A DNA stretch of 64,000 nt from Natrinema salinisoli. Its GTDB lineage: Archaea; Halobacteriota; Halobacteria; Halobacteriales; Natrialbaceae. The position numbers and the translations under genes were made by a program. Below are positions 25,745 to 38,029 of the stretch, piece by piece. Where the stretch lies: positions 992,001-1,056,000 of the forward strand of contig NZ_CP084469.1 in NCBI RefSeq assembly GCF_020405205.1. Direction: 5' to 3'. Position 1 is the stretch's first letter; the number at the start of each line of letters is the position of its first letter. The notes below the pieces were generated by a model. The model made no database searches. It had not been told where the DNA came from and saw only the letters and a program-made list of their open reading frames with translations.

Positions 25745-27406
25745 TTACGCGTCTCGAAAGCCGAGCCCGACAGTTTCGTCGTCGAGGGCGTTCTGTCGTT
25801 TGTCGAGCAACCCGACCTCGTCGTACGAAACCGGTCCTGGAACCTGATGCGCTTCGGGCCCCGGTTGGTGGCCGAGATAGGTGACGTTCGGGTTCGTTCC
25901 GATATCCGCCAGCAGTTCGAACTCCACCTCCGGTGCGTCGACGTAGTCCTCGAACAGTTCGTAGGCGGCTTCCTCCGGACTGGCGACCTGAACGTCTTGA
26001 GTCGGGCCCTCGAACTGGTCCGGCGACAGTCCGATCTCTCTGATCCCCTCCTCGCTCTCGAGGTCGAGTCCGGTGTCTTCGATCGCGGTCACGACGTCCA
26101 GCACCGTCTGCTCCTTGTCCGGCAGGGAATCGCCCGGTGGCGGTTCCTCCTCGTACTCCTCCTGAGTGAGATCGACTCCTTTCGCGAGTGCGATCATCCC
26201 GACGGTAAGTTCGTCGACGGCATCGACGACGGCGTCGAGATTCCCGTCGACGCCCTCGAGCGACGATTCGACCGAGTTCGGGGACGGCAGCTGCGTGAAC
26301 AGATTGATGATCGTTCGCGACCTAGCCGGGTTTTCCGCGTACCGTTCCGGGTCGCTCGCGGGGTTGTTTTTGTCGCCGAACTGGATCACGTTCGGCGGAC
26401 AGGCCTGCTCACAGGCGGTCGTTCCGATCAGTTCCTCGCCCGCGTTGCCGTCCTGCCGAGTCGGATCGAAGACGCACTTCGACATGACGCCGCGGGGAGC
26501 GCGACGACTGACCGGTCGGCCGCGCTCGTCGTAGATTCTCTCCGGATCGAGTTCCTCCCGGTCGGTGTCGGGATCGTCCCACTGGAAGTAGTTGACGCCG
26601 TACGGGCAGGCCACTTGACAGTAGCGACAGCCGATACAGACTTCGTAGTCGGTCAGCACCAGCCCGCCTTCGTCGCGCGTGTGGCGAGCCGTCGTCGGGC
26701 ACACCTTCTCGCAGGGCGCGTCGGTACAGTGCTGACACGGGCGGACGAGGTAGTTAAACTCGTGAACGGCATCGGTCTGCGAGCATTCTCCGGGCTCGAC
26801 GTCGACGCTGTCGGGATCCGGTGACTCGACCTGGCCGTCCTCGTAGGCGAGAACGTACATCCAGTTGGCCCCCTGGTCCCATCCGTGTTCCTGATTACAG
26901 GCGGTCACGCAGGCGAGACAGCCGTCGCAGTGCTCGAGATCGATCGTCATCCCCCACTGGGTCCCCTCGTCTGCGTCCTCGACTTCCCCCGCGTCCTCGA
27001 CTGCGGGTTCCGGCTCCGGCTCTTGCTGATCGACCGCACCCCAGCCGAGGCTCGCGAATCCCAGACCGGCCCCCGCCTTTTTGAGCATCTCCCGACGTGA
27101 CTCGTCGCCGTCGGCGAGTTGCAAGAGCGTCGACCCGATACCCTCCTCCTCGCCGTCAGCGTCGTCCGGCCTGGCGATCGGTCGCTCGTCCTCTCCGAAC
27201 TCCGCCATCACGTCCTCGTGATACCGCTCGTGAAACTCCTCCTCCGAGAGCTCCCCTTTCGTGACCCGCATGGCGTCCCGCCCCATCTCCATCCCGAGTT
27301 CCGTATCGTACTCCGTGTCGTCGAGCAACTCCTCGAGGTCGTCCTGCCACGACTCACCGAGCGGGTGAAAGGTCTCTTCGTCCGGCGACTCGTCGTCCGC
27401 ACTCAT
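25745..27406 (-). CDS. Four-cluster 4Fe-4S protein (DmsB/NrfC/HybA type) with internal Tat motif
   Basis: About 553 residues from the ATG at 27406 (an in-frame ATG at 27472 would add 22). Electron-transfer subunit of a molybdopterin or similar membrane oxidoreductase. Cysteine groups: CDGCLACVTACNQ, CQHCTDAPCEKVCP, CIGCRYCQVACPYG and a split set ending ACEQACPP, matching four [4Fe-4S] clusters. A Tat-like SRREMLKKAGAG motif lies at 103-114, after an acidic N-terminal domain of about 100 residues, rather than at the N-terminus. The 200 C-terminal residues are acidic with no recognised domain. No catalytic or membrane-anchor subunit is adjacent. Confidence 0.85.
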   Translation of the reverse strand: MSADDESPDEETFHPLGESWQDDLEELLDDTEYDTELGMEMGRDAMRVTKGELSEEEFHERYHEDVMAEFGEDERPIARPDDADGEEEGIGSTLLQLADGDESRREMLKKAGAGLGFASLGWGAVDQQEPEPEPAVEDAGEVEDADEGTQWGMTIDLEHCDGCLACVTACNQEHGWDQGANWMYVLAYEDGQVESPDPDSVDVEPGECSQTDAVHEFNYLVRPCQHCTDAPCEKVCPTTARHTRDEGGLVLTDYEVCIGCRYCQVACPYGVNYFQWDDPDTDREELDPERIYDERGRPVSRRAPRGVMSKCVFDPTRQDGNAGEELIGTTACEQACPPNVIQFGDKNNPASDPERYAENPARSRTIINLFTQLPSPNSVESSLEGVDGNLDAVVDAVDELTVGMIALAKGVDLTQEEYEEEPPPGDSLPDKEQTVLDVVTAIEDTGLDLESEEGIREIGLSPDQFEGPTQDVQVASPEEAAYELFEDYVDAPEVEFELLADIGTNPNVTYLGHQPGPEAHQVPGPVSYDEVGLLDKRQNALDDETVGLGFRDA

Positions 27407-27803
27407 CGTCCCCACCGCGGTCGAGTTGCTGTCTCTCGAGTGGCGATCATTGTGGCTCGTGTCACCACACATATTCCAAGTCTTCGCATAGTGACCCTGC
27501 TTGCGAGTGATGGGCCCGACGGCTGTCTCGGTGGTCTCGTTCTATGCCGCCTCCAGATACGTGTCGAAGGTACTGACCTCGCCGCAATACTCGAAAATCA
27601 GTGCAACGGGTTGATTCGTGCCGCTAGGCAGTGCTCATCGAGTTGTTGCGAAGCGCGAGAGGGAAATTTGAACGGCATGAAAACGGTCGTCCTCGCATCG
27701 GTCGGATGCTGCGTCTTCTCTCATTCAAATCTCCGAAGTCGTTTTCCAGCAACGGTTTACATCGCGTCGCTACGCGGCGCTCAACGGTTTGTCGTTGGAA
27801 AAG
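27407..27803. other. Gene-free stretch with tRNA-Ser 3'-end remnants
   Basis: No convincing gene. Positions 27642-27673 repeat, with one indel and few mismatches, the 3' end and flank of the adjacent tRNA-Ser (27791-27824), the shared core being gagaggga[a/g]atttgaac. A second, inverted copy begins at 27724 (ttcaaatctcc, then ttttcca at 27742). The arrangement suggests past integration or duplication at the tRNA. Confidence 0.55.
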
Positions 27804-27888
27804 CGCCGAGAGGGAGATTTGAACTCCCGAGTCCGTGAGGACAGTAGATTTCGAATCTACCGCCTTGGCCGGGCTAGGCTATCTCGGC
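27804..27888 (-). tRNA. tRNA-Ser (anticodon CGA)
   Basis: On the minus strand the acceptor GCCGAGA pairs with TCTCGGC, with discriminator G. The anticodon stem gtaga/tctac encloses ttcgaaa, giving anticodon CGA. A long variable arm marks a type II tRNA, and the T-arm contains GTTCAAAT. It is 85 nt and has no encoded CCA. T-run sequence follows the 3' end. Confidence 0.95.
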
Positions 27889-28032
27889 TCACTCATACGT
27901 ACCCGAGTGACGTTTTTACCCGTTTCGATTCTTCGCTCCCCCTGAGATTGATTGTCTCACCGACGAGGGAGAGGGATGGACCGCTCGAGTCGCGAATGGC
28001 AGACCGTTCCGAACGGACGACGACGCGTCCGA

Positions 28033-30723
28033 TCAGCCCGTATTCTTCATTCCGGCTGCGATCCCCTTCACTGTCAGTCGCAGGGTTCGCTCCTCGATGT
28101 CCGTCCGGTGGGTCCGATTGAGCAGGTACACCTGCAGCATGTTCAGCGGGTCCACGTAGGGGTTCCGTCGCTCGAGGTTCTCGCCGAGCCAATCGCGGGT
28201 GTGCAGGCGGTCTCGCTGACCGATCTCGGTGATCAGATCGGCCGTTCGCTCGTACTCGTCGGAGACGCGGGGGAAGAACTGTTCGCGAAGGTCTTCCTCG
28301 GCCATGTTCGCGTACCGCTCGGCGATCTCGAGTTCGGTTCGCGACAGCGAGAGGGCCGCGTTATCGAGGGTGGTTCGGAAGAACGGCCACTCCTCGTACA
28401 TCTCCTGTAAAGTTTCCATCGAGCCACCGTCGTCGAGGTAGGCCTCGACGCCGGTCGCGATCGCGTACCAGCCCGGCAGGATACACCGCGACTGGGTCCA
28501 GGAAAACACCCACGGGATCGCCCGCAGGTCCTCGACGGTGCGCTCGCCCGATCGGGAGGCCGGCCGCGACCCCAGATCGAGGTTTTCGATGACGGTGATC
28601 GGCGTCGCCTGCTCGAAGTACTGGACGAACCCGTCGCTCTCGAGGAGATCGCGGTACTCCCGGCGGGCCGCGTCGGCCATGGTTTCCATGGCCTCGACCC
28701 ACTCGTCGTGGACCTCCTCTTCGGGCTGGTCCATGGACTGCTTGCGCGCCCGGAGCTGGGCGTTGAGCATCTGTTCGATGTTGCGCTCGGCGATGCGCGG
28801 GTTGGCGTACTTCTCGGCGATCGCCTCGCCCTGCTCGGTGAACTTGACCTGTCCCGTGACGGTCGAGTTCGGCAGCGCGAGCAGCGCCTCGTTCATCGGG
28901 CCGCCGCCGCGCGAGATCGAGCCGCCGCGGCCGTGGAACAGCCGCATCGTCACGTCGTAGTCGTCGCAGATCTCGCCGAGCCGGCGCTGGTTCTTGTACA
29001 GCGACCAGTTCGCTGCGAGGAACCCGTTCTCCTTGTTCGAGTCCGAGTACCCGAGCATGATCTCCTGGGTCTGCCCGCGAGCTTCGAGGGCCTGCGCGTA
29101 GGCCTCGTTTTCGAACAGCGTGCCCATGATCCGGCGCGCGCCGGAGAGGGCGTACTCGGTCTCGAGCAGGGGAACGATGTCGATCCCGGAGTGTTCGGGC
29201 AGGGAGACGACGCCGGCCTGATCGGCCAGGAAGAGCACCTCGAGGACGTGGCTCGGCTCGTCGGTCATCGAGATGGCGTAGGTGTCGATGGCGTGGCTGC
29301 CATACTCGGTCTGCCAGTCGGCAAGGCTGTCGAACAGCCGGAGGACCCGCCCCGAGTCGTCGGAGAGCTCCTCGGTGTCGCCGAGGTCGATCACGGGCTC
29401 GTCCTGCAACACGGCCTCGGTCAGGAACTCGACGCGTTCGTCCTCGGAGAAGCCGTGGTAATCGATCCCTTCGGCCTCGAGGGCTTCGGCGATGGCATCG
29501 GTGTGTTTCGCCTGGTGCTCTCGGAGATCGAGGCTGGCGAGCGAGAAGCCGAACGTCGCGACCTGCCGGCGGATCGGGTCGACGTGCGCGTCGACGACGC
29601 TCTCCGCACCGTTGTTCCGCAGGCTCTTCGCGATGACCTCGAGATCGTCGAGGAGGGCGTCGACGTCGTCGTAGCCGCCAGGGCGGACGTCGCCGACGCG
29701 GCGGATCCGCTCGCGCATGAGCTTGAGTTTCTGCCGGTAGGGCTCGCCCGGATAGCGCTCCTCGGCGGTGCGAGCGCTGCCGGGGAGTCGTTCGCGGTCC
29801 CGCTCGAGCGAGGCCTGGAACGCGGAGCCGGCATCGATCCGGCTGCCGTCCTGGCTCAGTACGCCCGAGAGTCGCTTGAGCTGCTCGCGGTACTGCTCGA
29901 GGACGACCGACCGCTGGCGCTCGAGGGTGTTCGCGGTCACGTCGGGGGTCACGTACGGGTTGCCGTCGCGATCGCTCCCGGCCCACGAGCGGAACTCGAA
30001 GAGCTTCGGAATCTCGAGGTTGCCGGGGACTTCCTCGTCGATCGCGTCGTCGAGTTCGTCGTAGATCTCGCCGACGACGTCGAAGAGGGTGTTCTCGAGG
30101 TACCACTGGACGTTGCGCGCCTCGTCTTCGGGCTCGGGCTGCCGATTGCGGACCTGCGGGGTCTGCCAGAGGCTCGTGACCTCAGCGTCGATGTCCCGCC
30201 AGAGCTGGCTCTCCTCCTTGTCGGTCAGCAGCCGCTCGTCCAGCGTCTCGAGGTCCGTCGAGATATCGCGCAGTTTGGACTTGACCGTCTTGCGGCGCGC
30301 CTCCGTCGGGTGCGCGGTAAAGGTCGGCTCGATCAGTACGTCGTCGAGGATCTGGCGGACGGTCTCGACGTCGGCCTCGCCGAGCTCTTCGGCGGCCGTT
30401 TCGAGGCTATCGTCGAGGGTCCCCTCGTGGGATTCTGTCCGGATCGTCCGGACCCGTTCGCGCTCCTCGGCGAGGTTGATCAGTTCGAAGTAGGTCGTGA
30501 ACCCGCGAGCGACGATCCGCTGTTGATGGGGCGAGAGGTTCTCGAGCTCCGTGACGAGGGGCTCGCGAGACTCGAGCTCCCCGGACCGGTAATCGATCGC
30601 GGCTCGCCGGCACGATTCGACCGTCTCGAAGGCTTTGCGAGACGTCTGTTCCTCGAGGACGTCGCCGAGCAACGCACCGAGCTCCCGGACGTCCTGTCGA
30701 ACGTTTCTGTTATGGAGTCGCAT
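28033..30723 (-). CDS. ppc: Phosphoenolpyruvate carboxylase
   Basis: 896-residue cytoplasmic enzyme that carboxylates PEP to oxaloacetate, replenishing the TCA cycle. Conserved motifs are visible: the catalytic histidine region FTAHPTEARRK (about 132-142), SDSNKENGF (about 560), FHGRGGSISRGGGP with its Arg-rich loop, and the C-terminal end MKNTG. It is the bacterial-type long form used by haloarchaea, not the short archaeal PpcA. Feedback by aspartate or malate is typical of the family. The start at 30723 is leaderless relative to a TATA box 26 nt upstream. Confidence 0.97.
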   Translation of the reverse strand: MRLHNRNVRQDVRELGALLGDVLEEQTSRKAFETVESCRRAAIDYRSGELESREPLVTELENLSPHQQRIVARGFTTYFELINLAEERERVRTIRTESHEGTLDDSLETAAEELGEADVETVRQILDDVLIEPTFTAHPTEARRKTVKSKLRDISTDLETLDERLLTDKEESQLWRDIDAEVTSLWQTPQVRNRQPEPEDEARNVQWYLENTLFDVVGEIYDELDDAIDEEVPGNLEIPKLFEFRSWAGSDRDGNPYVTPDVTANTLERQRSVVLEQYREQLKRLSGVLSQDGSRIDAGSAFQASLERDRERLPGSARTAEERYPGEPYRQKLKLMRERIRRVGDVRPGGYDDVDALLDDLEVIAKSLRNNGAESVVDAHVDPIRRQVATFGFSLASLDLREHQAKHTDAIAEALEAEGIDYHGFSEDERVEFLTEAVLQDEPVIDLGDTEELSDDSGRVLRLFDSLADWQTEYGSHAIDTYAISMTDEPSHVLEVLFLADQAGVVSLPEHSGIDIVPLLETEYALSGARRIMGTLFENEAYAQALEARGQTQEIMLGYSDSNKENGFLAANWSLYKNQRRLGEICDDYDVTMRLFHGRGGSISRGGGPMNEALLALPNSTVTGQVKFTEQGEAIAEKYANPRIAERNIEQMLNAQLRARKQSMDQPEEEVHDEWVEAMETMADAARREYRDLLESDGFVQYFEQATPITVIENLDLGSRPASRSGERTVEDLRAIPWVFSWTQSRCILPGWYAIATGVEAYLDDGGSMETLQEMYEEWPFFRTTLDNAALSLSRTELEIAERYANMAEEDLREQFFPRVSDEYERTADLITEIGQRDRLHTRDWLGENLERRNPYVDPLNMLQVYLLNRTHRTDIEERTLRLTVKGIAAGMKNTG

Positions 30724-37954: not shown

Positions 37955-38029
37955 TGCTCCGGCTGGGATTCGAACCCAGGTCATTGCCGTGAGAGGGCAA
38001 TATGATTGGCCGGACTACACCACCGGAGC
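37955..38029 (-). tRNA. tRNA-Glu (anticodon CTC)
   Basis: On the minus strand the acceptor GCTCCGG pairs with CCGGAGC and the discriminator is A. The anticodon stem ttgcc/ggcaa encloses ctctcac, giving anticodon CTC. The D-arm (TGGTGTAGTCCGGCCAATCA) and T-arm (GGGTTCGAATCCC) are standard. It is 75 nt with no CCA encoded. Confidence 0.95.

Follow-up and report, generated by a model that had tools for sequence, protein, structure and literature searches.

A partly decayed repeat unit after tRNA-Ser(CGA) of Natrinema salinisoli belongs to a family of haloarchaeal tRNA-tail repeats that resemble the RtT repeats of E. coli in plan

The window, a stretch of 64,000 nt from Natrinema salinisoli (Natrialbaceae, Halobacteriales), carries a tRNA-Ser(CGA) gene on the minus strand at 27803-27888, which is called by ARAGORN and matched by Rfam model RF00005 with 56.9 bits. 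The 3' tail of this gene has been copied next to it. Read on the minus strand from the 3' end of the tRNA, the gene is followed by a hairpin (H1) and an inverted copy of one strand of the T-arm; then come a loop core, the tRNA tail in direct copy and the remnant of a second H1. H1 (27742-27802, minus strand) starts at the first base past the tRNA and is recognised from its sequence (TTTTCCA ... TGGAAAA) and fold. The inverted copy GGAGATTTGAA (27724-27734, minus strand) is the exact complement of positions 1-11 of the tRNA tail and forms the 5' arm of a second hairpin, H2, whose 3' arm is the direct tail copy (27653-27672, minus strand). Between the arms lies a 51-nt core, TGAGAGAAGACGCAGC...CGACCGTTTTCATGCCG (27673-27723, minus strand), which resembles the class B cores found at other tRNA loci and was left unclassified by the script. 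The remnant past the tail copy (27603-27652, minus strand) gives a local alignment score of 29 over about 50 nt against the H1 of a relative (locus L006), and of 20 against the window's own H1.

A sequence-only reading of the window had proposed a direct repeat, 27642-27673 against 27791-27824, derived from the 3' end of the tRNA and delimiting about 150 bp. Both the origin and the size of the unit are borne out. The repeat itself holds for 27656-27673 and 27807-27824, where CGAGAGGGAAATTTGAAC is identical at 17 of 18 positions, but not as one block reaching 27642 and 27791; these outer positions belong to the start of H1 after the tRNA and to the diverged start of the second H1 after the copy. 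If one substitution and one deletion are allowed, the copy covers the whole tail: TTCAAATTTCCCTCTCGCGC on the minus strand at 27672-27653 aligns with TTCAAATCTCCCTCTCGGCGC of the tRNA. An inverted copy had also been placed from 27724 onwards. Its 11-mer at 27724-27734 is exact, whereas the 'ttttcca' at 27742-27748 is no part of the inverted tail but forms the right arm of H1, with 27796-27802 as its pairing partner. Folding, suggested at the time as a check, supported H2 but not H1 taken alone. For the 82-nt H2 stretch the folding z-score is -3.31 on the tRNA strand (none of 200 shuffles as good) and 0.36 on the other strand, and the H1 stretch alone folds no better than its shuffles (z -0.11).

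In a tRNA-centred test, the tail of a tRNA gene from the T-loop onwards was compared by alignment with the following 350 nt, or with the stretch up to the next tRNA where that came sooner, with a threshold score of 13; an inverted arm was counted when it scored at least 9 ahead of the tail copy. In a looser version of the test, the copy at tRNA-Ser(CGA) scores 16, and in the 350 nt upstream of the 46 ARAGORN tRNA genes of the window genome, taken as a control, the maximum was 11, except for a score of 21 at a tandem tRNA-Asp pair, which reflects a real second tRNA. In the test itself, none of the 46 reversed tails reached 13. The tail repeat at tRNA-Ser(CGA) exceeds chance. At the window's other tRNA gene, tRNA-Glu(CTC) at 37955-38029, the looser version gave a score of 7 over 350 nt and hence no tail copy.

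Across the window genome, a tail copy follows 15 of the 46 tRNA genes, and in 13 of these 15 an inverted arm lies ahead of it. The same arrangement was found in eight genomes from seven families of the order, whose tRNAs were the top of lists ranked by tRNA score and not a random sample: 43 of 114 tRNA genes have a tail copy, 29 of the 43 with the arm, and the count is 29 of 80 without the two genomes that had been chosen for pattern hits (G291 and G151). Within the same phylum but outside the order, none of 47 tRNA genes has one (Fisher p 2.4e-8), and the reversed-tail control gave zero in every group. Under a looser version of the test, two of six further tRNAs of the order carry a copy. A locus search added 17 matches adjoining Arg(GCG), Arg(CCT), Gly(TCC), Val(TAC), Met(CAT) and Ser(GGA) tRNA genes; at these 17, judged by eye, the copy is the local tRNA's own tail.

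As read from these sequences, the unit consists of H1, an inverted T-arm copy, a loop core of one of a few recurring classes and a direct tail copy from the T-loop to the 3' end, placed after a tRNA gene either singly or in arrays of two to four. That such an element family exists is almost certain. The sampled loci, many of them chosen because units were present, contain 173 tRNA genes and yielded 146 distinct tail copies under 33 ARAGORN labels, or 31 tRNA types once intron-bearing calls are merged. The tail copy is preceded by GTGG in 92 of the 146 units, and the T-loop complement lies upstream of it in 132, so the inverted copy belongs to the unit, and its origin in a second event, as had been considered, is not supported. 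The arm also follows the local tRNA beyond the T-loop anchor, where 3.62 of the next six bases pair with it on average, compared with 2.86 when tails are permuted (maximum of 1000 permutations, 3.14). Odd T-loops are matched as well: TTCGATT of tRNA-His is faced by an arm with AATCGAA, and a TTCAATT tail by AATTGAA.

Sites defined by the core alone lead back to tRNA genes. Among 86 such sites, 77 have an ARAGORN tRNA within 700 nt upstream on the same strand; no tRNA was called at the remaining nine, two of which lie within 50 nt of the end of the available stretch. Over 20 nt, the tail copies at the 77 sites match their tRNA perfectly in 33 cases, with one mismatch in 23, two in six and four or more in 15, and hence with at most one mismatch at 56. 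Core classes extend over 15-18 tRNA types; they are defined by regular expressions, which leave 38 of 143 units, the window's own included, unclassified. One class-A pattern occurs in 102 of 125 genomes of the family (27 of 29 genera), with zero printed in the reversed-pattern columns, and of the 392 genomes of the order, 18, from 12 of 95 genera, match one class-B pattern; since units share descent, such counts are not of independent events. All 22 class-B loci follow a tRNA, 20 according to ARAGORN and two by eye, and a pattern scan of named genomes returned 33 stretches with haloarchaeal titles. The window feature is one partly decayed unit of this tRNA-tail repeat family, which is widespread in the haloarchaeal order. 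No Rfam family for the units was found with window positions 27000-28200 and four haloarchaeal loci as queries, nor was a description of them in archaea found in the literature searched, which covered few subscription papers.

The tRNA-Ser(CGA) region was recovered in all 29 genomes of the genus, the window's own included. By script, 12 of the 29 have a tail copy there, four of them twice; two more were recognised by eye, in G002 (locus L050) and at L013, where the copy contains an indel. Presence of units thus differs even among close relatives, and the repeat does not show the uniform spacing in all of them that the sequence-only reading had named as evidence against an integrated element. 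The element that it had suggested looking for between the two copies was not seen either: relatives of the genus with a tail copy at tRNA-Ser(CGA) show no gene-bearing insert. Their first copy begins at position 102-143 after the tRNA, and no integrase gene lies in these 102-143 nt. The core class at this one tRNA varies by species (A, B, C, D or unclassified), and L006 and L011, compared by eye, have similar H1 modules in different combinations. At L009 (G022) a whole unit stands inverted after tRNA-Ser(CGA): the opposite strand carries a class-B-like core end and, following it, a perfect tail copy of 19 nt. Among 62 orthologous unit pairs in the genus, identity is 84% in the arm, 75% in H1, 73% in the core and 70% in the next 30 nt; the 96-97% of the tail copy is inflated by the entry condition, which allowed no more than 5 mismatches in 19 tail positions.

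In arrays, decay is usually further advanced in the copy most distant from the tRNA. Of 30 arrays with at least two copies, 15 show more mismatches in the last copy than in the first and three show fewer, with 12 ties (p 0.0075); this count excludes loci L170 and L172 as well as units shorter than 40 nt. The window genome also offers a case in which integrase-bearing DNA does separate two tRNA copies, as it does not at tRNA-Ser(CGA). Just downstream of its tRNA-Leu(TAG) gene lies an integrase gene, and about 25.6 kb farther on a displaced 60-nt 3' part of the tRNA, starting just before the anticodon stem and identical at 57 of 60 positions, is followed by two units of the tail-repeat kind. This stretch (G000:C1:1605452-1631352, outside the window) is likely an integrated element that pushed a unit array off its tRNA. 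The tails of the displaced units retain TTCGAAT, whereas the tRNA-Leu(TAG) gene now has TTCAAAT, from which it follows that the array was displaced by ordinary integration and that the separated copies did not track the gene.

Two candidates for gene-bearing cassettes were rejected. At L096 (G011) there is no second tail in the available stretch and the neighbouring gene order is altered; at L142 (Halorhabdus amylolytica) a tail copy 2.7 kb downstream sits behind the first unit with other genes between. This second tRNA-Arg(CCG) tail copy at L142 is accompanied by its hairpins. As to mobile carriers, one DNA query found no match in phages, and two scans with two core patterns found none in viral contigs. 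The plasmid search gave four records, including a Natrinema record that matches 48% of the query.

A known system built on the same plan is the RtT RNA, or tyrT 178-bp repeat, of enterobacteria (RF00391; rttR of E. coli K-12). As a positive control, its covariance model finds four units with 133-138 bits in the tyrT-tyrV region of E. coli K-12, where three tRNA-Tyr tail copies follow tyrV and one follows tyrT. The annotated end of rttR is the exact end of the first tail copy after tyrV. Elsewhere the model scores 101 bits at proK and 47 at lysV, above the cut-off of 45, and 29 at argV and 31 at argZ, below it. In chosen E. coli regions, 18 tRNA genes pass the length filter. Tail copies follow seven of them, namely two tRNA-Tyr, three tRNA-Arg, tRNA-Pro(CGG) and tRNA-Lys, and only three of the seven copies have an arm scoring at least 9 ahead. 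Like the haloarchaeal units, RtT repeats lie downstream of tRNA genes and each ends in a copy of the local tail; after tyrV they stand in tandem, as do the haloarchaeal arrays. At tyrT and tyrV an inverted arm pairs with the copy as in H2, GGGGAAGGAT after tyrV being able to pair with ATCCTTCCCC, and in the proK and lysV units an intrinsic terminator hairpin takes the place of H1. At these last two loci (L366 and L360) the duplication takes in the tRNA's terminator hairpin as well as the tail and is thus longer than the tail alone. Unlike the haloarchaeal copies, those of E. coli start only where the T-loop ends and carry the encoded CCA, and far fewer tRNA types are involved than in haloarchaea. 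RtT was absent from the matches up to E 10 for window positions 27000-28200 and found nothing at gathering score in four haloarchaeal loci; in the window genome nothing exceeded the 45-bit cut-off, the best match having 17.7 bits (E 1.79). The haloarchaeal units resemble RtT by plan and are not members of RF00391 by sequence.

Base-pairing was compared across 21 fixed-length class-A units. Ten of them have C-G and ten G-C as the outermost terminal pair, and compensatory exchange in the terminal stem exceeds all 200 shuffles at two of four pairs (the outermost and the fourth). The class-A arm pair 9/44 is T-A in nine and C-G in nine, its paired fraction of 0.86 equalling that of the best shuffle. 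With RNA parameters and correction by dinucleotide shuffles, the tRNA strand is the better folding one in 104 of 126 H2 and 101 of 123 H1 stretches, and for H1 and H2 alike this holds in 30 of 31 tRNA labels; structured windows away from tRNAs, with strands assigned at random, show no bias (67 of 135). Under DNA parameters the bias persists in H2 (104 of 126, smaller in energy) and is lost in H1 (55 of 123). We take the strand bias as indirect evidence that a transcript of the tRNA strand is under selection. G.T mismatches do not clearly outnumber A.C, with 105 to 71 in the arms, 13 to 13 and 6 to 1 in another count, 9 to 7 in H1, 13 to 4 in H2 and 17 to 11 in fixed-length class A, and mismatches do not decide between RNA and DNA. 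An acceptor-strand partner for the tail copy was not detected above permutation (3.79 against 3.64; permuted maximum 3.86), though the acceptor part of the copy is conserved. GNA triloops are enriched, at 26 of 100 triloops compared with 4.9 in mononucleotide shuffles, a feature tied to neither DNA nor RNA.

The best reading of the units, to which we assign a probability of roughly 55%, is that they are RtT-like trailer-RNA elements with a second tRNA-like 3' end, their transcription and function being putative. The unit would be transcribed with the tRNA as its 3' trailer and act as RNA; H1 would cover the trailer, and H2, by presenting a second tRNA-like 3' end, would offer a site for cutting the trailer RNA. 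The idea of a cut at the tail copy is taken from E. coli, where the RtT RNA is annotated as ending together with a tail copy. In favour of this reading are the frequency of tail copies within the order and their absence outside it, the pairing of arms with the local tRNA, the compensatory exchange, the strand bias of folding and the end of rttR. Points against it are the ratio of G.T to A.C mismatches, the bias that H2 retains under DNA parameters, the conserved acceptor part for which no partner was found, the variable presence among close relatives, and the worn state of the window's own copy, with an H1 that folds no better than chance. Arrays would grow and shrink via recombination between near-identical tails, and RNA function and spread at the DNA level may both be true. 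A broader and more tentative proposal, to which we give somewhat less than an even chance, is that Bacteria and Archaea share a class of tRNA trailer elements: a tRNA gene would be followed by hairpin units, each closing with another copy of that gene's 3' tail, and the complementarity of arm and tail would be maintained for each tRNA separately. Enterobacterial RtT and the haloarchaeal arrays would be two instances of it, convergent or ancient. The resulting RNAs, with their tRNA-like 3' ends, might influence how tRNAs mature, perhaps by serving as a decoy or switch in 3' processing. About one third of the tRNA genes in the window genome carry the element, with a comparable count over seven families. 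Every array preserves, in one place, copies whose source sequence is known, so that gain, loss and stem co-evolution can be traced for individual tRNAs. The shared plan gives the E. coli tyrT repeats a comparison, making function and origin testable in two domains.

Other explanations rely on processes at the DNA level. The sequence-only reading had seen in the tail and its copy the attL and attR of a lost or collapsed element, integrated at tRNA-Ser(CGA) only. Integrated elements likewise duplicate a tRNA 3' end, archaeal ones are described as using such ends (PMC8371274), and the element at tRNA-Leu(TAG) shows that the window genome has one. A lone att scar is nevertheless rejected as the main reading and must be considered highly improbable, since the same two-hairpin unit stands after many tRNA genes, each time copying the gene's own tail, under all the labels and at nearly a third of the window genome's tRNA genes as counted above; in addition, the units are gene-less, about 100 bp long, equipped with an inverted arm, arranged in arrays and present at many tRNAs at once. 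Annotators should be aware that a short direct repeat of a tRNA end need not be an att scar. An origin as gene-less mini integrative cassettes is unlikely but deserves more weight. Tail, H1, arm and core would form a small circle, which a tyrosine recombinase would insert by crossing over in the T-loop, the newest unit lying nearest the tRNA, and H2 would be a folded recombination site comparable to that of integron cassettes. The start of the copies at the T-loop, frequently after GTGG, is compatible with this, as are the greater decay of distal copies and core classes that occur with many kinds of tRNA yet vary from species to species at a single tRNA. Recombinases were searched for at the level of the general family PF00589, which occurs in nine of nine genomes. 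Integrons, too, form arrays of small units with hairpins conserved more in structure than in sequence, and attC has a fixed boundary, G|TT, as do the haloarchaeal units. The attC core site is GTTRRRY, however, and most units have GTTCAAA or GTTCGAA, with C instead of R as the fourth base. The bottom strand of attC is the one that folds better, whereas the units fold better on the tRNA strand under RNA parameters. They also lack genes, have no identified IntI and use the tRNA tail as their repeat. No gene-bearing version, excised form or phage, plasmid or viral carrier was found with the two patterns and one DNA query, and the true integrated element at tRNA-Leu(TAG) uses a different, 60-nt repeat.

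Slightly less probable again is a mutational by-product without function, in which inverted and tandem copies of the tail arise by template switching and slippage at tRNA genes, and quasi-palindrome repair preserves the complementarity between tail and arm. The complementarity held at many tRNAs, the variable copy number of arrays, the inverted unit at L009 and the differently combined H1 modules of L006 and L011 would fit such a process. Local copying does not provide cores of the same class at 15-18 tRNA types, and the strand bias of folding and the absence of tail copies from all 47 tRNAs outside the order also argue against it. Among known mobile elements, archaeal integrons have been reported from metagenome-assembled genomes of nine phyla, with 'halo' absent from the available text of the report (PMC9668308). 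Casposons (Cas1 transposons) share with the units an insertion beside tRNA 3' ends with target duplications, as described in PMC4046053; the units differ in having no genes or terminal repeats that could be seen, and Cas1 is encoded in two of the nine genomes, all of which have tail copies, although the others may have had a Cas1 in the past. The PATEs, MITEs and IS200/IS605-type elements of haloarchaea are, like the units, small, gene-less and palindromic (PMC3119063). The units differ from them in their position after tRNA genes at 77 of the 86 core-defined sites, and the Y1 transposase is present in five of the nine genomes and absent from four with tail copies. These counts weaken the casposon and IS200-type routes more than they support a recombinase.

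A second type of hairpin accompanies the units at three tRNA-Arg(GCG) loci (L032, L047 and L089). It is derived from the acceptor end, consists of CGTCAGGAC and its inverse, and either follows the usual unit or replaces it.
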